A stretch of 64,000 nt of DNA from NCBI GenBank assembly GCA_963812945.1, contig CAWEXD010000003.1, forward strand, positions 124,001-188,000, read 5' to 3'. Source of the DNA: DASRDR01 sp963812945 [NCBI: uncultured Candidatus Rokubacteria bacterium] (GTDB lineage: Bacteria; Methylomirabilota; Methylomirabilia; Rokubacteriales). Both the position numbers and the translations under genes were made by a program. Each line of letters starts with the position of its first letter. The stretch's first letter is position 1. The notes beneath the pieces were generated by a model. That model was not told the DNA's origin and did not search any database. It was given only the letters and a program-made list of their open reading frames with translations. Shown here in pieces: positions 21,680-58,993 of this stretch.

Positions 21680-24337
21680 GTGGCCGAGACCCGAGGGCCC
21701 ACGTCCCGCGCGGGGCGCGTCCGGGAGAGCGTCCTGGTCGCCCTCCTCCTGACGGCGCTGGCCATCGTCCTGACGTGGCCGGCCGCGGCGTTCCTCGGCT
21801 CCACGGTCAGCGACCTCGGCGATCCCGTCCTCACGACCTACGTCCTCGCGTGGAACGTCCACGCGCTCGGCGCGACTCCGCTCCGGCTCTTCGACGCGAA
21901 CATGTTCCATCCGCACCGGGGGACGCTGGCCTACACGGACCATCATCTCGGTCTGGCGCTGCTCGCCTGGCCGGTGCGCCTCCTGGGCGCCGGGGCCGTC
22001 TTCGCCCACAACGTCGTCTGGCTCGCCTCGTTCCCGCTGACGGGCCTGACGCTCTTCTGGCTGGTTCGCCACCTCACCGGGCACGCGGGCGCCGCGACGG
22101 TCGCGGCCGTCCTCTACGCCTTCTCGCACTTCCGATTCGGCCAGCTGGGCCACATCCAGATGCTGAGCCACCAGTTTCTCCCGCTCATGCTCCTCGGGCT
22201 CCATCGGGCGGCGGAGAGCGGAGGGCGCTGGCGGGACGTGGCGCTCGCGGCCGGGGCCTTCGCGGTCCAGGCTCTGGTCACCGGGTACTACGGGTTCTTC
22301 GCGGCGATCGCGGGGGCGCTCTTCGTCGTCTGGCTCGCCGGGCCGAGCACGCGGCCACCCCTCGGCCGCCTGGCCGCCCGGGGCGTGCTGGCCGCCGCGC
22401 TGGTCGCGGTGCTCCTGCTGCCGTTCTTCCTCCCCTACCGGTTCGTCCGCGACGAGATCGGGCTTTCCCGGAGTCTCGAGGAGATCACGCATTTCTCGGC
22501 GCGGCCCGCGTCCTACCTGGCGGCGCCGGTGGTCAACCGATGGCTCGGGAAAGCCACGGCCGGGTTCCGGGGCGAGAAGGCCGTGCTGTTCCCCGGCCTG
22601 GTCGCGCTCGGGCTCGGGGTCCCGGGCTTCGTCCTCGCGTGGCGCGGACGGGGGGCGGCCTTGGGCGGGACGCCGGCAGAGGGCCGCCGCTGGCCGGCCG
22701 GGGTCGACGTGGCCTTGGCCGTGCTCCTCCTGGTGACGGTGGCCAACTGGATCCTGCTCGGCAGGGTCTTCCTCCGGATCGGGGCGTTCCGGCTGTCGCA
22801 GCAACACTTCGGCGCGCCGTTTCTCGGGCTCGCCCTGGCCTTCGCCGCGCGCCGTTTCGTCCAGGGCCGGCCCGTGCCCGTCCACGGGCTGGGCTGGCTC
22901 CGCCGGATCGGGTGGCCCAACAGCGCGGGGTACTACGTCGGGCTGACGCTCGTCGGCGTGATCGCCTCGTTCGGGCCCTGGCTGGAGCTCGGGCAAGGGC
23001 TCCGGCTCCGCCCCGTCTATCGCCAGCTCTGGGAGTTCGTCCCCGGCTTCGACGCGCTCCGGGTCCCGGCGCGCTTCGGCGTGCTGGTCACGACGGGGCT
23101 CGCGACCCTCGCCGGGTTCGGCGCGGCCGCCCTCGCGCGACGGCTTCCCCGTCCCGGGTGGCGCGCGGGCGCGCTGGGCGCGCTCGGCGCCCTCGCGGCC
23201 CTGGAAGCCTGGGCCGTGCCGCTCCCGCTCATGACCGTGCAGCCAGGTCCGGGGCCGACCGACCGGTGGCTCGCCGCCCGGCCCGGCGGCTCGGAGGCGG
23301 TCCTCGTCCTGCCGATGTACGAGCCCCACGCCGTGCACCTGGAGAGCCTTCGGCTGCTCGGCTCCACGGCGCACTGGCGCCCCCTGGTCAACGGCTACGC
23401 CGGCGTGTTCCCGGCCGACCATTCCGCGACCATCACCCTGCTGAACACCTTCCCCGCGCCGGCGGCGGTGGCGCGCCTCCGGGCGATCCACGTCCGCTAC
23501 GTGGTCGTGCATCTGGGGCAGTACCATTCGGAGCCACGGGCGCGCCTCGAGGCAGCTCTCGCGCTCCTGCCCCCCGGGGTCGCGCGAGTCGCGACCTTCG
23601 AGCACTCCCAGATCTTCGAGATCGGCCCGGAGGGCGCGCGGACGTCAGGCGAGACGGGTGGTGCGGACGAAGTCCCGCGCGCGCGCGAGCGTCGCGGGCT
23701 CGGCGAGGCCCGCCGCCCCGAGCGCGTCGAAGCACTGGGAGACGGTGAGCACGGCGTGCAGGCGGTAGCCCTTCGCGAGGAGGCGCTCGCGTCCGCCCTG
23801 CTCGCGGTCGATCAGGACCACGAGGTCCTCGACGACGAGGCCGGCGGCCTCGAGGGGCTCGATGGCCTCCAGCTTCGAGGCGCCGTCCGTCACGATGTCG
23901 TCGATGACGACGACCCGCTCCCCCGCCTGGAACGCCCCTTCGATGCGCCGCCGGGTGCCGTACTCCTTTGCCTCGCGCCGCGGGTAGACGAGCGGGAAGC
24001 CGCCGGCAAGGCTCGTGGCGACGGCGAGCGGGAGGCCCGCATACGGGATACCCGCGATGCGGTCAGCCCGGCAGCGCGACACCTCCGCCGCCATCAGCGC
24101 GCCCACCTGGGCCAGGACCGTCGGGTGGGAGATCACCACCCGCAGGTCGATGTAGAAGGGCGACGTGACGCCCGACTTGAGCACGAACTCGCCGAAGCGC
24201 AGCCCGCCGATCTCGTGGAGCCGCCGGACGAGCGGACCCTGGCCCGGCTCGCTCACGCGGGGATCTCGGAAAGGATCGCGATCGCGGCGGCGGCCGGGTC
24301 GGTGGCCCCCGTGATCGGACGGCCCACCACGAGGTAG
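21680..24337 (+). CDS. Polytopic membrane protein, glycosyltransferase/YfhO-like; frame overruns pyrE
   Basis: An integral membrane protein with a first helix ([20 protein letters not shown]) and about ten more hydrophobic helices up to roughly residue 540. A soluble C-terminal part follows (about 540-655), including [20 protein letters not shown] and [11 protein letters not shown]. The architecture resembles bacterial membrane glycosyltransferase or YfhO-like proteins acting on lipid-linked sugars, but no catalytic motif is certain. GTG 21680 follows a GAGAGAG stretch and is the likely start. The recognisable protein ends near 23640. No in-frame stop occurs until 24337, so the last 230 or so codons are antisense to pyrE and read as noise. 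A lost stop codon or an indel near 23640 is likely. Confidence 0.7.
23645..24256 (-). CDS. pyrE: Orotate phosphoribosyltransferase
   Basis: Converts orotate and PRPP to OMP. The 203 residues include [53 protein letters not shown] and the PRPP-binding loop [18 protein letters not shown]. The GTG start overlaps the pyrF stop (GTGA). It is the last gene of the pyr operon and converges with, and is overlapped by, the membrane-protein frame on the other strand. Confidence 0.95.
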
Positions 24338-24987
24338 TCCGCGCCCGCCCGGACGGCCAGAGCGGGCGTGGCGGTGCGCGCCTGATCGTCCACGGCGCCA
24401 CCGGTAGGACGGATGCCCGGGGTCACGATCAGGGCGTCACGCCCGAGGAGCCCCCGCAGGCGGGCCGCTTCGCGCGGCGAGGCCACGACGCCGTCACATC
24501 CCGCGTCTCGCGCGAGGCCGGCGAGGTGCACCGCGTGCCCCTCGACCGCGACCGGCACGCCGAGCTCCCGGTGGAGCGCCGCCCGGTCGAGGCTCGTGAG
24601 CACGGTCACCGCCAGGATCCGCGGGCGATCACGCCCGGCCGCGGCGGCGGCGTCGGCCGCCGCGCGCAGCATGGCCGTCCCGCCCGAGGCGTGAACGGTG
24701 AGGAGGCCGACACCGAGCCGCGCCGCGGACCGGACAGCTCCCGCCACCGCCGCGGGGATGTCGTGGTACTTGAGGTCGAGGAAGACGCGGCCGCCCCGGC
24801 GATGAACCATCTCGACCGCGGCCGGGCCGGCAGCCGTGAAGAGTGGGCTCCCCACCTTGAAGTGGGTGACCACCCCGGCGAGCCGCACGACGAGCGCCTC
24901 GGCCTCGGCCAGCCCCGGCATGTCGAGGGCGACGATCAGCCGGTCGCGGGCCGCCCCGGCCGTGGCCCGGGTTTGGGAAGCGGTCAC
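24253..24987 (-). CDS. pyrF: Orotidine 5'-phosphate decarboxylase
   Basis: Decarboxylates OMP to UMP. The 244-residue barrel contains [19 protein letters not shown], the catalytic Asp-Lys-Asp block. It also has [25 protein letters not shown] and [16 protein letters not shown] for phosphate binding. GTG start overlaps carB stop; stop overlaps pyrE start. Confidence 0.95.
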
Positions 24988-27900
24988 GCCTTCATGCTCT
25001 CGTAGTACGCCTGGAGCGGCCGGACCTCCGGCACGCCCGCCCGCTGCGCCTCGATCGCCTCCAGCGCGGCCTGGGCGCCGTCCATCGTCGTGTAGTAGGG
25101 AATGTTCTGCATGACCGCGGTCCGCCGGATCAGGTAGGAGTCCTTCCGGGCGCGCCCGTCCTCCGGCGTGTTGATGACGAGCGCGATCTCACCCTGCTTC
25201 ATGAGATCGACGGAGTTGGGCCGCCGGCCCTCCGCCACCTTGTGGATGACCTGCACGGGGAGCCCGTGTCGCTCGAGGACCTTCGCCGTGCCCTGCGTCG
25301 CCACGAGCTGGAACCCCATCTCGGCGAGGCTCCGGCCGATGTTGACGATCGCCCGCTTGTCGCGGTTCCGCACCGACAGGAAGACGCGGCCGCGCTGCGG
25401 GAGCGTCGATCCGGCGGCGAGCTGCGACTTCAGGTACGCCGTTCGGAACTCGCGGCCCACGCCCATCACCTCACCCGTGGAGCGCATCTCGGGGCCGAGG
25501 ATCACGTCGACGCCGGGGAACTTCACGAACGGGAACACCGCCTCCTTGACGGAGACGTGGGGCAGATCGGTGACCTCGCGCACGCCCAGCTCGGCGACCC
25601 GCGCGCCGAGCATCACCCGGGTCGCGAGCTTGGCGAGCGGCACCCCGATCGCCTTCGAGACGAACGGCACGGTGCGTGACGCGCGCGGGTTGACCTCCAG
25701 CACGTAGATCGTGTCGTTCTTGATCGCGAACTGGATGTTCATGAGGCCCACGACGCCAAGCTCGAGAGCCAGGGCTCGCGTCTGCGCCCGGAGCCGTTCG
25801 GCCTGGTCGTCGCCGATCGAGTAGGGTGGCAGCGCGCACGCCGAGTCGCCGGAGTGGATCCCCGCCTTCTCGATGTGCTCCATCACGCCGCCGACCAGGA
25901 CCTCCTGGCCGTCCGAGAGCGCGTCGACATCGATCTCGATCGCGTCCTCCAGGAACTTGTCGATGAGAACCGGGTGGTCGGGCGAGACGCGCGCCGCCTC
26001 CACCATCCAGTCACGGAGCCGCGCCTCCTCGTAGATGACCTCCATGGCCCGGCCACCGAGAACGTAGGACGGGCGCACCAGCACCGGATACCCGAGCCCG
26101 GCGGCGATCCTCACGGCCTCGTCGGCCGAGCGCGCCGAGCCATTGGGCGGCTGCTGGAGGCCGAGCTTCCGCAGGAGATCGGCGAAGCGCTCGCGGTCCT
26201 CCGCCCGGTCGATGGCGTCGGGCGACGTCCCCATGATCCGGACACCGGCGCGCTCGAGGGGGACCGCCAGCCGGAGCGGTGTCTGCCCGCCGAACTGCAC
26301 GATGACCCCGAGCGGCCGCTCCCGCTCGACGATGTTGAGCACGTCCTCCAGGGTCAAGGGCTCGAAGTAGAGGCGGTCCGACGTGTCGTAGTCGGTCGAG
26401 ACCGTCTCCGGATTGCAGTTCACCATGATCGCCTCCACGCCGGCCTCGCGGAGGGCGAAGGCGGCGTGGACGCACGCGTAGTCGAACTCGATCCCCTGGC
26501 CGATGCGGTTCGGCCCCGAGCCCAGGATCACCACCTTGGGGCGCGTGGTCGGCGGTGCCTCGTCCTCCTCCTCGTAGGTCGAGTAGAGGTAGGGCGTGTG
26601 GGCGACGAACTCCGCCGCGCACGTGTCCACCACCTTGAACGTGGCGCGGACGCCGTGAGCGAGCCGGGCCGCGCGGACCTCCGCCTCGGCGCGGCCCGCC
26701 AGATCGCCGAGACGCCGGTCGGAGAAGCCGAGGCGCTTCGCCTGGCGCAGCGTGTCGCGCGAGAAGTCGGAGGTGCGCCGGAAAGCCTCCTCGAACTCGA
26801 CGAGCTCCTCCATCTGGGCGAGGAACCACGGATCGATCCCGGTCAGCCCGGCGATCTCCTCGCGCTCGAGCCCGCACCGAATGGCCTCCGCGAGGTAGAA
26901 GAGGCGGTCGGGGTTCGGCACCCGGAGGCGGTCCCGGAGCCCCTCCGGGTCCAGGCCCGGCTGGCTCATCCCGAACCCGGCCCGGTCCTGCTCGAGCGAG
27001 CGGATGGCCTTCTGCAGCGCTTCCTTGAACGTCCGCCCGATCGCCATCACCTCGCCGACGGACTTCATCTGGGTCGTCAGCGTCTGGTCCGCCTCGGGGA
27101 ACTTCTCGAACGCCCAGCGCGGCACCTTCACGACGCAGTAGTCGATCGTCGGCTCGAACGACGCTGGCGTCTCGCGGGTGATGTCGTTCCGGAGCTCGTC
27201 GAGCGCGTACCCGGCGGCAAGCTTGGCCGCGATCTTGGCGATGGGGAAACCGGTCGCCTTCGACGCGAGCGCCGAGGAGCGGCTCACACGGGGGTTCATC
27301 TCGATGACCACGAGCCGGCCATCCGCGGGGTTGACGGCGAACTGGATGTTCGAGCCCCCTGTCTCGACGCCGATCTCGCGGATGATCGCGAGCGCGGCGT
27401 TCCGCATGAGCTGGTACTCCTTGTCGGTCAGGGTCTGGGCGGGCGCGACCGTGATGGAGTCGCCCGTGTGGACCCCCATCGGGTCGAAGTTCTCGATCGA
27501 GCAGACGATCACGACGTTGTCGCGGAGGTCGCGCATCACCTCCAGCTCGAACTCCTTCCAGCCGATGACCGACTCCTCGACGAGCACCTGGCCGACCGGG
27601 CTCTGCTGGAGGCCCCAGCGAATGGCGCCCTCGAGCTCGTCGGGGTTCCAGGCGACGGACCCCCCGGTGCCGCCGAGCGTGAACGAGGGGCGGATGATGG
27701 CGGGATAGCCGACCTCGCGGACGACGTCCCGCGCCTCCTCGAGGGTGCGCGCGAAACCGGAGCGCGGCAGCTCGAGACCGATCCGCTGCATCGCCACCTT
27801 GAAGAGCTCGCGGTCCTCGGCCTTCCGGATCGCCTCGAGCTTCGCGCCGATCAGCTCCACGCCATAGCGCTCGAGGACGCCGCGCTCTGCCAGGGCCACC

Positions 27901-28196
27901 GCGAGGTTCAGCCCGGTCTGCCCGCCGAGGGTCGGCAACAGCGCGTCCGGCCGCTCGGCGGCAATGATCTGCTCAAGCACCTCCGGGGTCAGCGGCTCGA
28001 CGTAGGTCCGGTCGGCCATCTCCGGATCGGTCATGATCGTGGCCGGGTTCGAGTTCACCAGCACGACCTCGAACCCCTCCTCGCGGAGTGCCTTGCAGGC
28101 CTGCGTGCCCGAGTAGTCGAACTCGCACGCCTGGCCGATGACGATCGGCCCCGAGCCGATCAGCAGGATCTTCCGGATGTCCGTCCGTTTAGGCAT
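24984..28196 (-). CDS. carB: Carbamoyl-phosphate synthase large subunit
   Basis: Makes carbamoyl phosphate from bicarbonate, ammonia (from CarA) and two ATP. The 1070-residue protein shows the internal duplication of two ATP-grasp halves. The first runs from [20 protein letters not shown] with [17 protein letters not shown]. The second starts at [19 protein letters not shown] with [20 protein letters not shown]-terminal MGS-like allosteric domain includes [20 protein letters not shown], where pyrimidine effectors bind in known enzymes. It is separated from carA by a small ORF and a perfect inverted repeat. Confidence 0.97.
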
Positions 28197-28200
28197 GGCC

Positions 28201-28274
28201 GGGGTCAGACTTTGACTTCTTAACAGTTTCCCGCCGGCCCTGTCCGAAGTGTTTAGAAGTCAAAGTCTGACCCC
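28201..28274. repeat. 74-bp palindromic element with perfect 20-bp inverted arms
   Basis: GGGGTCAGACTTTGACTTCT (28201-28220) and its exact reverse complement (28255-28274) flank a 34-base centre; AACAG..TTTC and GAAGTGTT extend the pairing imperfectly. It fills the gap between the carB start and the stop codon of the 87-residue ORF, touching that stop by one base. It lies inside an operon, so the transcript would carry a strong hairpin with no U-tract. Similar GGGGTCAG-type ends occur at repeats linked to Y1/REP-associated transposases; that link is from memory. No transposase gene is near. Confidence 0.8.
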
Positions 28275-28537
28275 TATTCCAGCAGCCCGTAGACGATGGA
28301 GACGCCGGGGGGCGCCTCTTCCCGGCGGACGAGGAACTCGACGAGGGGCGCCGAGCCGAGATACTGGACCTCGCCCGCGCCCGTCAGCCGCTCGCCGAAC
28401 AGCCCGAGCCGCTTCTCCACCCGCTCGCGGATGGCGTGCGCCTCGAGTGCCGCGGACGACTCGGTCGTGAAGGAGGCCCACTCGGGCTTCTGCCCGGCCT
28501 CCTCGGTCTTCCGATAGGCGACGAAGTACCGGGGCAT
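28274..28537 (-). CDS. Small protein of unknown function between carA and carB
   Basis: An 87-residue protein beginning MPRYFVAYRKTEEAGQKP and ending VSIVYGLLE. It is soluble, mixed alpha/beta by composition, with no cysteines and no known motif. It lies 3 bases from the carA stop, so it is translated as part of the pyr operon. I do not recognise it. Its stop codon abuts the palindromic element at 28201-28274. Confidence 0.6.
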   Translation of the reverse strand: MPRYFVAYRKTEEAGQKPEWASFTTESSAALEAHAIRERVEKRLGLFGERLTGAGEVQYLGSAPLVEFLVRREEAPPGVSIVYGLLE

Positions 28538-28540
28538 CGC

Positions 28541-29674
28541 TCACCTGCCTCTCGACTGCGTGAGGAGCTCGATGAACCGCCGGAACAGGTAGTGCGAGTC
28601 GTGCGGCCCGGGGGCCGCCTCCGGGTGGTACTGGACCGAGAAGACCGGAAGGCTCCGGTGGCGCATGCCCTCGCACGTGCCGTCGTTCAGATTCACGTGC
28701 GTGACCTCGAACCCGGCGGCGGCGCCCGAGTCCGGGTCCACGGCGAAGCCGTGGTTCTGGGAGGTGATCTCGACCCGGCCCGTGGCGAGATCCTTCACCG
28801 GATGGTTCGCACCATGGTGACCGAAGGGCAGCTTGAACGTCCGCGCCCCGAGGGCCAGCGCCAGGATCTGCTGGCCGAGACAGATCCCGAACGTCGGCAG
28901 GCGCTCGACGAGCCGCCGCACCGACTCGGCGAGGTAGGGCACGCCCTCCGGATCGCCCGGGCCGTTCGCGAGGAAGAGTCCATCCGGCCCCAGCGCCAGC
29001 ACCTCGTCCGCCGAGGCGAAGGCCGGCACCACCGTGACGCGGCAGCCTTCGGCCGTCAGCAGGCGCAGGATGTTCCGCTTGATTCCCGAATCGTACGCGA
29101 CCACGTGGAAGCGCGCGGGCGGAGCGGCCGCGTAGCCCTGGCCCAGCCGCCACACCGACTCGCGCCACTCGTAGGGCGCCGGGCAGGACACTTCCTTCAC
29201 GAGGTCCCGGCCGACGAGCCCCGGGGAGGCCTTCGCCTTGGCGACCAGCCGCCGGGGATCCTGGTCCCCGGTCGCGATGACGCCCTCCTGCGCGCCGCGG
29301 TCGCGCAGGTGCCGGGTGAGGGCGCGGGTGTCGATGCCCTGGATCCCCACGATTCCGTGGCGGCGGAGGTACTCGTCGAGCGTCGCGGTCGCCCGCCAGG
29401 AGGACGACACGGGCGACGCCTCGCGGACCACGAAGCCCTCGGCCCACGGCCGCCCGGACTCCGGGTCCTCCTCGTTCACCCCGGTGTTGCCGATGTGCGG
29501 GTACGTCATGCAGACGATCTGTCCCTTGTAGGAGGGGTCCGTGAGGATCTCCTGGTACCCGGTCATCGCCGTGTTGAACACGACCTCGCCCACGGTCTCG
29601 CCGCGGGCGCCGAGGGCCTCGCCCTCGAAGACCCGACCGTCGGCCAGCGCGAGGACCGCCCGCTCCGCGCGCAT
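28541..29674 (-). CDS. carA: Carbamoyl-phosphate synthase small subunit
   Basis: Glutaminase subunit supplying ammonia to CarB. The 377 residues begin [18 protein letters not shown]. They contain [36 protein letters not shown] and the class I amidotransferase site [15 protein letters not shown] with the catalytic cysteine, then [21 protein letters not shown] at 29677 and ATG at 29674 are adjacent; both overlap the pyrC stop, and ATG is preferred. Confidence 0.96.
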
Positions 29675-30978
29675 CACGCCCCGTGGTCCCCGGCCACGAC
29701 GCCGTCCTTCATCACGATGCGGCCGCCCACCACCGTCATCCAGGGCGCACCGACGCAGGCCCAGCCGCCGAACGGCGTGTTCCGCGCCTTCGAGCGGAAC
29801 CGGGCAGGCTCGATCACGTGCTCTTTGGCGAGGTCGAGGACCGTCACGTCACCCGGCGTCCCCGGGGCGAGGCTGCCGCCCGGCAGGCCGAGGACGCGCG
29901 CCGGGCCCGCCGTGAGCCGCGCGATCAGGGTCGAGAGGTCGACCACGCGCTCCCGCACGAGGTGTGTCAGGCAAAGGGCCACCGCGGTTTCCAGCCCGAG
30001 GATGCCGTTGGCCGCGTGATCGAGCTCGACCTCCTTGTCCGCGAGCGCATGGGGCGCGTGGTCGGTCGCGATCGCGTCGAGGGTCCCCTCCGCGAGGGCC
30101 TCCCGGCACGCCTCCACGTCGCGCTTCGACCGGAGCGGCGGCGCCATCTTGGCGTTCGCGTCGTAGGTGCGTAGCGCCTCGTCCGTGAGGAGCAGGTGGT
30201 GAGGAGTCACCTCGCCGGTGACCAGGACCCCGCGCGCCTTCGCGTCCCGGAGGAGCCGCACGGCCGCCGCCGTCGACACGTGCGCGATGTGGATCGGGGT
30301 CCCCGTCAGCTCGGCCAGCGCGATGTCGCGCGCGACCATGATCTCCTCGGCAGCCCCCGGGATGCCCCGGAGCCCCAGGTCCGTCGACACGAAGCCCTCG
30401 TGCATGACCCCACCCTCGGCGAGGGTGAGGTCCTCGGCGTGCGAGACGATCGGCCGGCCGAACGCCTGGGCGTACTCGAGCGCCCGGCGGAGAAGCACGG
30501 AGCTCATCACCGGCCGCCCGTCGTCGGAGTAGGCGACGCACCCGGCCTCGGCCAGCTCCCCCAGCTCCGCCATCTCCCGACCGCCCAGCCCCCGCGTGAC
30601 CGCGCCGATCGGGTACACGCGCACGACCCCCCGGGCCCGGGCCTCGGCCAGGATGTAATCCGTCACGGCGCGCGTGTCGTTGACCGGCTGGGTGTTGGCC
30701 ATGCACGCGACCGCGGTGAACCCGCCCGCGGCAGCGGCCCGGGTGCCCGTCGCGATCGTCTCCTTGTGCTCCTGACCGGGCTCGCGCAAGTGCACGTGGA
30801 TGTCGATGAAGCCGGGCGCGATGACTCGCCCCCCGGCGTCGAGGGTCTCGGCGCCCGCCGGCGCCTCGAGGCGCGGCCCGACCCGGGCGATGCGCCCGGC
30901 CTGGATCAGCACGTCCCCGGGCGCATCGAGGCCGTTGGCGGGGTCGACGACGCGGCCGTTCCGGATCAGGAGGTCCAT
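29674..30978 (-). CDS. pyrC: Dihydroorotase
   Basis: Cyclises carbamoyl aspartate to dihydroorotate. The 434-residue amidohydrolase has the metal motif [19 protein letters not shown] near 55, [37 protein letters not shown] and [14 protein letters not shown]. It overlaps carA by its stop codon and follows pyrB by 3 bases. A type I (PyrC/AllB-like) enzyme; context makes dihydroorotase secure. Confidence 0.95.
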
Positions 30979-30981
30979 CGC

Positions 30982-31914
30982 TCAGGCCTCCCCGCCCTTG
31001 CTGCCGATCAGGAGATAGAGGATGGCCATCCGCACCGCGACCCCGTTCGCGACCTGCTCGAGGATCACCGAGTACGGCCCGTCGGCCACCTCCGGCGCCA
31101 TCTCGATCCCGCGGTTGACGGGCCCCGGGTGCATGATCAGGACATCGTCGCGCGCCCCGCGCAGCTTTTCCAGCGAGAGCCCGTAGAGTCGCGAGTACTC
31201 GCGGAGCGAGGGGATGTAGTTCGCCGTCATGCGCTCCTGCTGAAGACGCAGCATCATGATCACGTCGACGTCACGCAGCGCGTCCTCGAGCCGGCGCGCG
31301 ACCTTGACGCCCAGCTCCTCGACCCCGGGCGGGATCAGGGTGGGCGGCCCGGCGACCGTCACGCTCATCCCCATCTTCCGCATCCCGGCGATGTTCGAGC
31401 GGGCGACGCGGCTGTGGGCGATGTCGCCCACGATCGCGACGGACAGCCCCTCGAGGTGTCCCCGCTTCTCGCGAATGGTCAGGAGGTCGAGGAGCGCCTG
31501 GGTCGGGTGCTCGTGCATCCCGTCCCCGGCGTTCACGACCGAGCACCGGAGGGCCCGCGCCAGCATGTGGGCCGAGCCCGACGCCGAATGACGGATGACC
31601 ACGCAGTTGGGGCTCATCGCCTCGATGTTCCGGGCGGTATCGATCAGCGTCTCGCCCTTCACGACGCTCGAGGACGACCCCGAGACGTTGACGACGTCGG
31701 CCGAGAGCCACTTGCCGGCGATCTCGAACGAGGTCCGGGTGCGGGTCGACGGCTCGAGGAACAGGTTGACCACCGTCTTCCCGCGAAGGGCCGGGACCTT
31801 CTTGATCTCGCGGGAGGCGATCTCCTTCATGGAGGCGGCGGTGTCGAGGATCGTCTGGATCTCGCCGGGCTCGAGGCTCCGGATCTCCAGCAGGTCCTTC
31901 CGCGTGAGGCCCAT
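30982..31914 (-). CDS. pyrB: Aspartate carbamoyltransferase catalytic subunit
   Basis: Joins carbamoyl phosphate and aspartate. The 310 residues contain the carbamoyl-phosphate loop [13 protein letters not shown] near 54, [32 protein letters not shown] and [15 protein letters not shown] 31917 precedes ATG 31914 directly; ATG ([11 protein letters not shown]) is preferred. No PyrI regulatory subunit is present, so control probably lies with PyrR. Confidence 0.95.
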
Positions 31915-31941
31915 CACGTCCTCCTCGGCGCTCGGCGTTGG

Positions 31942-32658
<717 letters not shown>

Positions 32659-56772: not shown

Positions 56773-57154
56773 CAGGACATCTCCAGAACCGTCAACGGAC
56801 GTGCCCGACCGGCCTGATCGGATCAAGGCGTCTTCCGGCCAACACCTGCGCCTGCCGCCGCAGCATACACCCTCAACGTGACGCCGGTGTCTCGCGCACG
56901 GTCGACGATCCCGGCTTCCCCTCCCCGTATCGACCCGAGCCGCCGAGCAAGCCGTGAGCCCGCGTGATCGAGAGCCCAGTGCCTAGCATCCGCCGAACTA
57001 GGATTCGACCAGCCGAACTAGGATTCGACCAGTGGATAGGAGGACCCGCATGACAGCGTCATGCGAGTGCCGGCTCCGTCCCCCGATCCTGAAACACCCT
57101 GAGCATGTGTCATCTCCTCCGATCTGGGGAGGTCAGGGGACCCCGCCAGACGGC
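56773..57154. other. Gene-free 380-bp region with a tandem duplication
   Basis: No supported gene. It separates the SDR start from the end of the DedA-rhodanese gene. A 20-bp tandem duplication lies at 56993-57032. Immediately after it, on the plus strand, GGATAGGAGG precedes ATG 57050 (MTASCECRLRPP), a short start-like stretch that quickly becomes antisense of the rhodanese gene and may be the start of a lost gene. Confidence 0.5.
56993..57032. repeat. Perfect 20-bp tandem duplication
   Basis: CCGAACTAGGATTCGACCAG occurs twice without a gap (56993-57012 and 57013-57032). It lies upstream of the SDR gene and just before a plus-strand ribosome-site-like AGGAGG. Function is unknown; it may be a replication slippage scar or paired protein-binding sites. 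Confidence 0.85.
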
Positions 57155-58132
57155 TCAGCGCGACGACGGCCCGAGAGCGGGGATCGCGGGCGGCGCCAGT
57201 TCACCGACCGGGAAGCCCAAGGCCATCCACTTCGCCACGCCGCCTTCGAGCGGACGGACGCTGGTGATCCCCCGCCGCTTGAGCTGAAGCGCCACCCGGG
57301 CGCTCGTGGCTTCGTTGGGTCAGGAGCAGTAGAGGACCAGCTCGCGATCCCGGGGGATCTCCGCCAGGTGCTCGTCGAGCGCCTCGGCCGCGATCCATCG
57401 GCTGCTCGGAATGGCGTACGGGGCGGCGGCCACGTCCAGCGCCGTGCGGAGGTCAATGATCGCGACATCCTCTCCCGCCTCGAGCTTACGCTTGAGGTCC
57501 TCCGGCGAGATCCGGGCGATACGGAGCCGCCGGAGGAAGAGCTGACGGCGCAGATACTTCAGCAGGACGTAGCCGACAAGGATCCCCGCCACCAGAAGAC
57601 CCGCACCGCGTCCCATGGCGCTGACCCGTTGGACTACGACCTCGATGGCGTCACTGAAGACGTAGCCGATGCCGGCCCAGAGGCCCGCCCACAGCACGAT
57701 GCCCGCCAGGTCGTAGAGCACGAACCGGAGGCGCGAGATGCCGAAGATTCCCGCAAGCGGGGGCATGACCGTCGTCAACCCCGGCAGGAACTTCGACACC
57801 AGCAGCGCCCGGACGCCGTGGCGGAGAAAGAGGTTCTCGGTTCGACGCACGCAGACATCGGGCTCCAGCGTCAGGCGACACAGCCCCTGGAGCACGCGCA
57901 CCCCGCGTCGGCGGCCAATTTCGTGCCAGACGAGGTCGACTGGCAGAGCCGTTACCGCGATGGCGCCAATGACGAGCCAGAGACTGACGCGCCCCTGCGC
58001 CGCGAGGGCGCCGACGGCCAGAAGAGCCGGTACCGCCGGCAGCGGAATGCCCACCTGTTCGGCGACGACCAAGATGGGCAGGAGGACGACGCTGTACCGC
58101 TCGAGCCACTCGACGCCGCCCGGGAGGTCCAT
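57155..58132 (-). CDS. DedA-rhodanese fusion with in-frame TGA at catalytic Cys (candidate selenoprotein)
   Basis: Residues 1-200 are a DedA-type membrane protein (VSKFLPGLTTVMPPLAG, about five helices), followed by a rhodanese domain with VAIIDLRTALDVAAAPYAIP. At 57320-57322 a TGA follows LVLYCS. The same frame then continues PNEATSARVALQLKRRGI and VRPLEGGVAKWMALGFPV, the rest of a rhodanese domain, and stops at 57155. Related proteins read YCSCPNE or YCACPNE here, so TGA replaces the cysteine that aligns with the catalytic one of GlpE. A bSECIS-like hairpin lies downstream. Full product about 325 residues including one selenocysteine, if decoded; otherwise a truncated 270-residue protein or a sequencing error. 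Confidence 0.75.
57287..57305 (-). promoter_or_regulatory. bSECIS-like hairpin downstream of the TGA
   Basis: The minus-strand mRNA forms GCGCC-CGGGT-GGCGC, a perfect 5-bp stem extended by A-U and G-U to 7 bp. The 5-base loop has G at its second position. The 5-bp core stem begins 16 bases after the TGA and the apical loop 21 bases after, within the range described for bacterial selenocysteine insertion elements. Any GC-rich coding region can form such hairpins, so this supports the idea but does not prove it. Confidence 0.5.
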
Positions 58133-58237: not shown

Positions 58238-58620
58238 TCACACCGTGCGAAGTTGCGCCGGATCCACGGGCAGCTTGCGGAGCCGCTTTCCCGTTGCGGC
58301 GAAGATCGCATTGCACACCGCGGGGGCGACGGCCGACGTGCCGGGCTCGCCGATCCCGCCGGGCGCCTCCGTGCTCTGGACGAGATACACCTCGACCACC
58401 GGGGCCTCGTTGATTCGCAGCGTCCGATAGTTGTGGAAGTTGCTCTGCTCGACGCGGCCGTTCTTCAGGGTGATCTCGTTGAACAGGGCGGCGGAGATCC
58501 CGAAGACGATGCCGCCCTCCATTTGCGCCCGCACCGTGTCGGGGTTCACGATGATTCCGCAATCCACGGCGCAGACCACGCGCCGGACTCGGACCTCGCC
58601 CTCCTTCGAGGAGCCCGCAT
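58238..58620 (-). pseudogene. C-terminal remnant of a xanthine dehydrogenase-family molybdopterin subunit
   Basis: About 125 residues matching the end of an IorB/aldehyde oxidase-type molybdopterin-binding subunit: [55 protein letters not shown] and [20 protein letters not shown]. The remaining 600 or so residues of the family are missing, and upstream sequence in this frame is unrelated. The glutamate of GEPG is the catalytic base in the intact enzyme. It is a 5'-truncated relic. Confidence 0.82.
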
Positions 58621-58993
58621 GGCGCCCGCGGTCAGCCGGCGGCCCCCCACGCCAAAACTGGCGCCGGACGGCCGACATGTCCCTGGGTCGCAGGCACGGC
58701 CCAACCCTCGCACGGGAACCAGTCAGAACAACGGAAGGCCGTGTGGATGACGTGTGGATGAACACTTCCGCCTGCATTGCCCGGTGCAGCCATACTCGGA
58801 GGCGTCGGGTTCGATCGGGGGGGGTGCCGTCGGTGGCATCGGCACGAATCGTGCCGCGTGTCTAGCAGCTGGTCTGTGACGCTCGTCCAACACTCTCAAT
58901 CGGAGCGCATAGGAACGACTAGCGCCACCTCCGTGGGCGGGGCGGTCATACGCCTGCCGGGACGCTCCGACTGAACTCAAAGGAGACAGGACG
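58621..58993. other. Gene-free 370-bp region before the SnoaL gene
   Basis: No supported gene. It contains an 11-base duplication of GTGTGGATGA near 58740-58762 and the first copy of a 41-bp dispersed repeat at 58905-58945. Near its end, AAAGGAGACAGG is the ribosome site of the SnoaL-like gene. Confidence 0.5.
58905..58945 (+). repeat. Dispersed repeat copy A (41 bp)
   Basis: GCGCATAGGAACGACTAGCG followed by CCACCTCCGTGGGCGGGGCGG. A second copy at 59496-59537 differs by one inserted base and two or three substitutions. The two copies are in the same orientation and flank the SnoaL-like gene at 58994-59437. Confidence 0.85.

Follow-up and report, generated by a model that had tools for sequence, protein, structure and literature searches.

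A predicted DedA–rhodanese membrane selenoprotein with a Cys-x-Sec motif in Rokubacteria-type genomes

Does the TGA inside a DedA–rhodanese reading frame end the protein, or is it read as selenocysteine (Sec)? The question is raised by the minus-strand frame 58132 to 57155 of the window, as we call the whole stretch of 64,000 nucleotides that was analysed. The frame has 326 codons, the last of which is a stop, and contains a single internal TGA at 57320-57322, directly behind LVLYCS; behind this codon the same frame continues with PNEATSARVALQLKRRGI up to the terminal TGA. An earlier note, made from the letters alone, had described the frame in this way and proposed that the TGA specifies the catalytic residue of a membrane-anchored rhodanese. 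Our analysis supports its selenocysteine interpretation and confirms its observations in part. The features discussed below are as follows.

57155-58132, minus strand: gene predicted to encode a DedA(VTT)–rhodanese selenoprotein of 325 residues including Sec271, from the ATG at 58132-58130 to the terminal TGA at 57157-57155
57662-58039, minus strand: VTT (DedA) membrane domain, residues 32-157 (Pfam PF09335)
57221-57508, minus strand: rhodanese domain, residues 209-304 (Pfam PF00581; fold matches to rhodaneses)
57878-57880, minus strand: codon of Cys85 in the VTT domain, Cys in 50/50 Sec rows
57851-57853, minus strand: codon of Cys94 in the VTT domain, Cys in 50/50 Sec rows
57326-57328, minus strand: codon of Cys269, the likely rhodanese nucleophile, Cys in 52/52 rows
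57320-57322, minus strand: TGA presumably read as selenocysteine 271 (CxU motif), conserved as TGA in relatives, with Cys in homologous fusions
57288-57304, minus strand: hairpin resembling a bSECIS element, AGCGCC-CGGGU-GGCGCU, which lies in the coding sequence and starts with the 16th base behind the TGA

Translated through the internal TGA, the protein reaches the Pfam gathering scores of both domains (43.1 bits for PF09335 VTT, cut-off 33.9; 40.5 bits for PF00581 rhodanese, cut-off 22.2). A comparison with PDB folds, in which the matches concern the rhodanese part and barely cover the VTT part, returned 3tp9 with Z 17.7 and an rmsd of 1.5 over 108 residues, and GlpE (1gmx) with Z 14.4.

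We looked at the codon in 95 genomes (G001-G095), which make up the sample of the class of the nearest relative's genome; a phylum search gave the same 95 genomes. The full-length set consists of all 51 matches at E<=1e-40 whose sequence includes residue 271, and these come from 33 genomes. TGA was found at codon 271 in 49 of these 51 DedA–rhodanese genes (33/95 class genomes), or in 50/52 rows when the window is included, the exceptions being L019 with TCA (Ser) and L082 with GAG (Glu). Five further matches with E<=1e-40 miss codon 271: L091 and L092 end at contig edges, L089 has only the start of the rhodanese, and L090 and L093 have no recognisable rhodanese. The nearest relative (L001/L014, from Candidatus Rokuibacteriota AR15, genome G001) is 81-82% identical and has TGA at the same codon. 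L001 was the one close relative in a genome-contig search that gave five loci; it differs from the window at 2 of the 96 bases that extend from 36 upstream to 57 downstream of the TGA. Window positions 24000-32000 are collinear with G001, with 75% identity over 7.3 kb, and since this is the best match in the class, the window belongs to the group of G001.

Outside the class, residue 271 is Cys in all nine Pseudomonadota fusions examined, which come from plasmid records; the motifs YCSCPNE and YCACPNE, which the earlier note had named, do exist among the homologues (L124, L125). The comparison of codons that it had recommended thus gave TGA or Cys in nearly all homologous fusions. Among the relatives, none of the findings that the note had listed against its own proposal turned up. 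Four distant rhodanese-only matches (L127, L002-L004) have Asp or Ala at the aligned position, not Cys. A UGA at a position where homologues have Cys is the classical mark of selenoproteins.

The sequence behind the TGA bears on whether the codon is an ordinary stop, in which case the frame downstream would be the relic of a gene that is truncated or decaying. The standard-code translation does end at residue 270, and a truncated molybdopterin-binding fragment adjoins the gene in the window; against this stand the same TGA in 49/51 relatives and the signs of purifying selection behind it. The pN/pS of the window against its eight nearest Sec relatives is 0.38 over residues 205-270 and 0.33 over residues 284-312, and against the nearest one alone (L014) it is 0.16 before the TGA and 0.33 behind. 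The low pN/pS behind the TGA indicates that the C-terminal part evolves as coding sequence; Gly288, Gly297, Gly298 and Trp302, all in this part, are invariant in a 44-row alignment.

The hairpin argues in the same direction. As the earlier note had stated, its first base is the 16th behind the TGA, its stem is a GC stem and G is the second base of its loop. Codon uniformity was counted in 51 rows, one of which (L082) has no internal TGA. Among 70 conserved four- or six-fold columns, the most codon-fixed are Ser277 (AGC 49/50), Ala278 (GCC 47/48) and Ala281 (GCG 48/51), all of them in the stem; one codon accounts for 98%, 98% and 94% of these columns, as compared to a mean of 57% over all columns. 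All six pairs are formed in 51 of 60 TGA rows, five in 8 and four in 1, while only 7.8% of codon-shuffled versions that encode the same peptides with the family's codon usage form all six. In 58 of the 60 TGA rows, 97.1% of the stem cells are paired and three pairs have two-sided (compensatory) changes; none of 500 shuffles paired as highly, and slid versions paired in 18-63% of cells. Pairs are also kept in the six rows without TGA (six in L019, which has TCA, and in L104, which has TGT; five in L082 and L102; four in L105; two in L103). These would fit losses of different age and do not form a clean control. Taken with the compensatory changes in the stem, the conservation described above leaves an ordinary stop with a very small chance.

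The machinery for Sec is widespread in the class. Over the cut-offs, SelA was found in 83, SelB in 84, SelD in 92 and tRNA-Sec in 79 of the 95 genomes, one of which (G033) counts for tRNA-Sec only through a divergent gene. The anticodon is UCA in all three canonical tRNA-Sec genes inspected, and most SelD genes of the class have a TGA of their own. The search for Sec genes suggested in the earlier note therefore succeeded for SelA, SelB, SelD and a UCA tRNA-Sec at the level of the class, and failed on one point: in the nearest genome, G001, where SelA and SelB are neighbours on contig C392 and SelD lies on C120, no tRNA-Sec over the cut-off was found. The contig of G001 starts just before selA, which begins 1363 bases into it, and as tRNA-Sec lies ~1.4 kb before selA in G064, its place in G001 presumably falls off the contig end.

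Four genomes (G036, G035, G033 and G027) contain divergent tRNA-Sec-like genes (L162-L165), whose anticodon loop is of the UCA type and whose variable arm is long. In three of the four genomes they stand alongside a canonical tRNA-Sec; none of them was called tRNA-Sec by ARAGORN. In G007, G057, G061 and G070, a second SelD-like match without TGA lies in a frame of 746-799 aa, beside the TGA-containing SelD, and is perhaps a SelD fusion.

Reading of the UGA as Cys, or as another standard residue, was also considered. A tRNA-Sec-like tRNA-Cys is referred to as the tRNA-ReC type, and the divergent tRNA genes of the four class genomes, together with the Cys of the Pseudomonadota fusions at this position, could speak for it. 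However, the anticodon loop of those four genes is CUUCAAA or UUUCAAA, i.e., it still has UCA as in tRNA-Sec, which makes them weak candidates for a Cys-inserting tRNA, and tRNA-Sec, SelA, SelB and SelD are widespread in the class; we consider read-through as Cys highly improbable. A base or assembly error at this one codon, conceivable as the window is a single assembled sequence, is the weakest of the alternatives and very unlikely because the identical TGA is present in 49 genes of 33 other genomes.

Two of the features by which bacterial selenoproteins are recognised, namely an in-frame UGA aligned with Cys in homologues with the frame conserved beyond it, and a conserved stem-loop downstream, are found here. 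We therefore predict with high confidence, from computation only, that UGA 271 is decoded as selenocysteine. Decoding would require SelB and Sec-tRNA(UCA), guided by the hairpin from the 16th base downstream. With confidence nearly as high, the gene can be taken as a Rokubacteria-type membrane selenoprotein, in which an N-terminal VTT (DedA) domain is followed by a rhodanese with the predicted loop Cys269-Ser-Sec271-Pro-Asn-Glu. Standard-code translation would cut dozens of such Rokubacteria-type proteins short at the Sec codon.

Which residue of this loop acts as the nucleophile is less settled. The earlier note had placed the TGA on the catalytic Cys by alignment to GlpE, and this assignment is doubtful: pairwise HMMER alignments to five solved rhodaneses are split. 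By our reading of them, the catalytic Cys corresponds to Cys269 in the alignments with 3tp9 and 6pfz, and to residue 271 in those with 3iwh, 1qxn and 6mxv. The AlphaFold model (mean pLDDT 82.5; 89 over residues 261-270 and 76 over 271-280) shows a strand over residues 264-268, followed by the loop Cys269-Ser-Sec-Pro-Asn-Glu274 and by a helix that starts at 275. The rhodanese nucleophile sits just after the strand, and Cys269, as the first residue after the strand in the model, occupies the usual place. Cys269 is also kept in 52/52 rows, whereas residue 271 is replaced by Ser in one row and by Glu in another.

On the model and this conservation, Sec271 is probably the partner two residues behind the nucleophile Cys269, which gives a Cys-x-Sec pair. 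Cys269 would then be the usual sulfur-accepting nucleophile that carries the persulfide, and Sec271 may act as a fast resolving or reducing partner in the CxU pair. The reverse, in which Sec271 is itself the nucleophile and Cys269 its helper, is favoured by three of the five HMMER alignments and disfavoured by the AlphaFold model and by the stricter conservation of Cys269; we regard it as unlikely, though it deserves some weight.

If Cys269 and Sec271 form such a pair, they might work with residues of the membrane domain. In that domain, Lys114 is present in 52/52 rows and position 120 is Ser, Asn or Thr in 52/52; these are presumably the first and the second basic place, both mapped tentatively to residues of YghB. 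Of the cysteines of the domain, Cys85 and Cys94 occur together in 50/50 Sec rows and in none of the five relatives without Sec, where the losses are C94W in L019, C85S and C94F in L082, C85G in L089, both to Arg in L090 and C85F in L093. On a tree of the VTT domain, the Sec state and the cysteine pair must each have changed at least four times, and 4/4 independent pairs agree; the sign test gives p 0.125, four pairs being too few for a significant result. If the Pseudomonadota rows are included, some pairings yield three agreements and one comparison without a difference. Two Paraburkholderia fusions keep Cys271 while the Cys85/Cys94 pair is absent.

With about an even chance, the link between Sec and Cys85/Cys94 reflects nothing more than relaxed constraint in paralogues that are decaying. 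In favour of this, the rhodanese domain too is incomplete or missing in three of the five rows without Sec, the independent losses are only four, and the pair occurs in DedA rows without a rhodanese. This reading is opposed by L019 and L082, which have open frames over the whole fusion and depart at only 3/43 highly conserved columns each, Cys94 (plus Cys85 in L082) being among these departures (P91A, C94W and E274D in L019; C85S, C94F and G106R in L082). Sec rows depart at a mean of 0.3 and a maximum of 3 of the 43 columns. The pair was also considered as a mark of the fusion as such, and this was rejected since it is present in 11 of 21 further DedA-like class rows without a complete rhodanese, two of which (L136, L152) run off their stretch.

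A functional coupling between Sec and Cys85/Cys94 is thus a tentative reading, for which the co-occurrence is a hint with counter-examples outside the Sec set, and its chances are somewhat short of even. By the positive-inside rule, the Arg-rich stretch around Cys85/Cys94 and the rhodanese would both face the cytosol, so that an exchange between the rhodanese loop and the two cysteines would be possible. The Cys85/Cys94 pair might then work with Sec271 and Cys269, with sulfane sulfur, selenium or electrons passing from the rhodanese loop to the membrane domain or back; this passage may gate or power lipid flipping. That a Sec relay controls lipid flipping is, on present evidence, a doubtful proposition. 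The wider idea of a one-chain selenium relay that gates or drives lipid transport, with a CxU module spread by the lineage onto other partners such as trypsin-like protease domains and tandem rhodaneses, is speculative and only slightly less doubtful; if true, the CxU module would be a portable Sec domain of Rokubacteria. Sec together with a distant Cys pair provides a testable clue to why DedA domains join rhodaneses.

The protein could alternatively serve selenium uptake or detoxification, where the DedA part would move selenite and the Sec rhodanese would receive the reduced selenium. DedA has been linked to selenite uptake or resistance (PMC8659212, PMC11422209); the link in Ralstonia metallidurans is cited in the text of PMC11422209, and both PMC10127716 and PMC8659212 list Ledgham 2005, whose title names it, among their references. 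We think this role improbable, as lipid flipping is the better-known role of DedA domains (PMC10127716), and no conserved operon was seen around the gene in 16 loci and the window, where there is only synteny among close relatives, with families that look generic.

Just upstream of the gene, the window has a minus-strand frame at 58238-58777 whose match to the molybdopterin cofactor-binding domain MoCoBD_2 is confined to the final 70 positions of the domain; the frame looks like a truncated xanthine-dehydrogenase-type gene. Downstream of the gene, in the intergenic positions 56992-57031, a 20-base unit (GCCGAACTAGGATTCGACCA) is seen by eye twice in tandem.

The CxU motif itself is known. PMC13188914 (2026) tabulates 119 prokaryotic selenoprotein (sub)families with five rhodanese forms, one of which, NF041203, is of the CxU type, in agreement with the earlier statement that Sec-containing rhodanese-related proteins exist. 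NF041203 (rhodanese_LYCAU, ‘rhodanese-related (seleno)protein’; ‘Rhodanese-like form 3’ in Table 1 of PMC13188914) shares CxU with the window and is its best NCBIfam match (E 1.1e-22, residues 204-309). However, the window scores 80 bits, below the curated cut-off of 115, and the model of 126 positions describes only the rhodanese, to which the window adds the N-terminal VTT domain. The motif reads CSU in the window, and Cys, one residue and TGA in the relatives with TGA.

Fusions of DedA (COG0586) with PF00581 are likewise on record, e.g., P. aeruginosa PA1209, with the same two domains in the same order as in the window, and in the relevant passages of PMC10127716 and PMC12893004 their purpose is unclear and Sec is not mentioned; PMC10127716 calls the connection of rhodanese to undecaprenyl phosphate unclear. 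The nine Pseudomonadota fusions, ~30-41% identical to the window, also have its domain order, but show C-x-C-P at the motif, with Cys where the window has Sec. TsoB (NF045694; Table 1 of PMC13188914) resembles the window as a fused rhodanese with Sec, but has a DsbD-like partner and a UxxxxU motif, and the window scores 17.1 bits against its cut-off of 805. The rhodanese domain of YgaP of E. coli (5hbl/5hbo/5hbq) is a fold match to the window. We take YgaP to be a membrane-anchored rhodanese without a VTT domain and without Sec.

The earlier suggestion that a membrane-anchored DedA–rhodanese selenoprotein is a new architecture agrees with these sources. A DedA/VTT fusion is absent from the table of 119 (sub)families in PMC13188914, and among the matches listed for the open-access literature, whose scope excludes PMC12013261 and Deng 2026, there was no record of a DedA/VTT selenoprotein. 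A term search in the text of PMC12013277 gave no mention of rhodanese, DedA, VTT or three phylum names. Deng 2026 (Cell Rep 45:116760) is described in PMC13188914 as a study in which 63 genes of a Methylomirabilota MAG were predicted to encode selenoproteins. The window and its relatives thus appear to carry a known Sec motif in an apparently undescribed membrane fusion, predicted in a third of the class genomes, which would add a membrane-transporter fusion to the selenoprotein architectures.

The module may also be present in other proteins, as many rhodanese-only matches in the class lie in longer frames. Among 14 rows with longer frames that were picked by hand, 10 have TGA at the aligned codon, and the others have TGT, AGT, GAA and AGC. 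L095:190-1686 and L101:208-1935 combine Trypsin_2 and rhodanese according to Pfam, with TGA at YC[STD]-TGA-PDE, and L096-L100 look alike by eye; Trypsin_2–rhodanese is therefore a candidate for a second selenoprotein architecture of the class. L103:3-1877 (minus strand) encodes a Trypsin_2–rhodanese–cNMP-binding protein (Pfam) with Ser for Sec, and L105 is a partial relative, also with Ser. The frame L032:1489-2796 is VTT–rhodanese–rhodanese with two in-frame TGA codons (YCT-TGA-PNE and YCA-TGA-PAE), and hence a candidate double selenoprotein; its second TGA rhodanese has a hairpin at the same place with a different sequence. In L106/L107, TGA rhodaneses lie near the start of longer frames, and the part that follows in L106, unscored by Pfam, looks by eye like a nucleotidyl cyclase.
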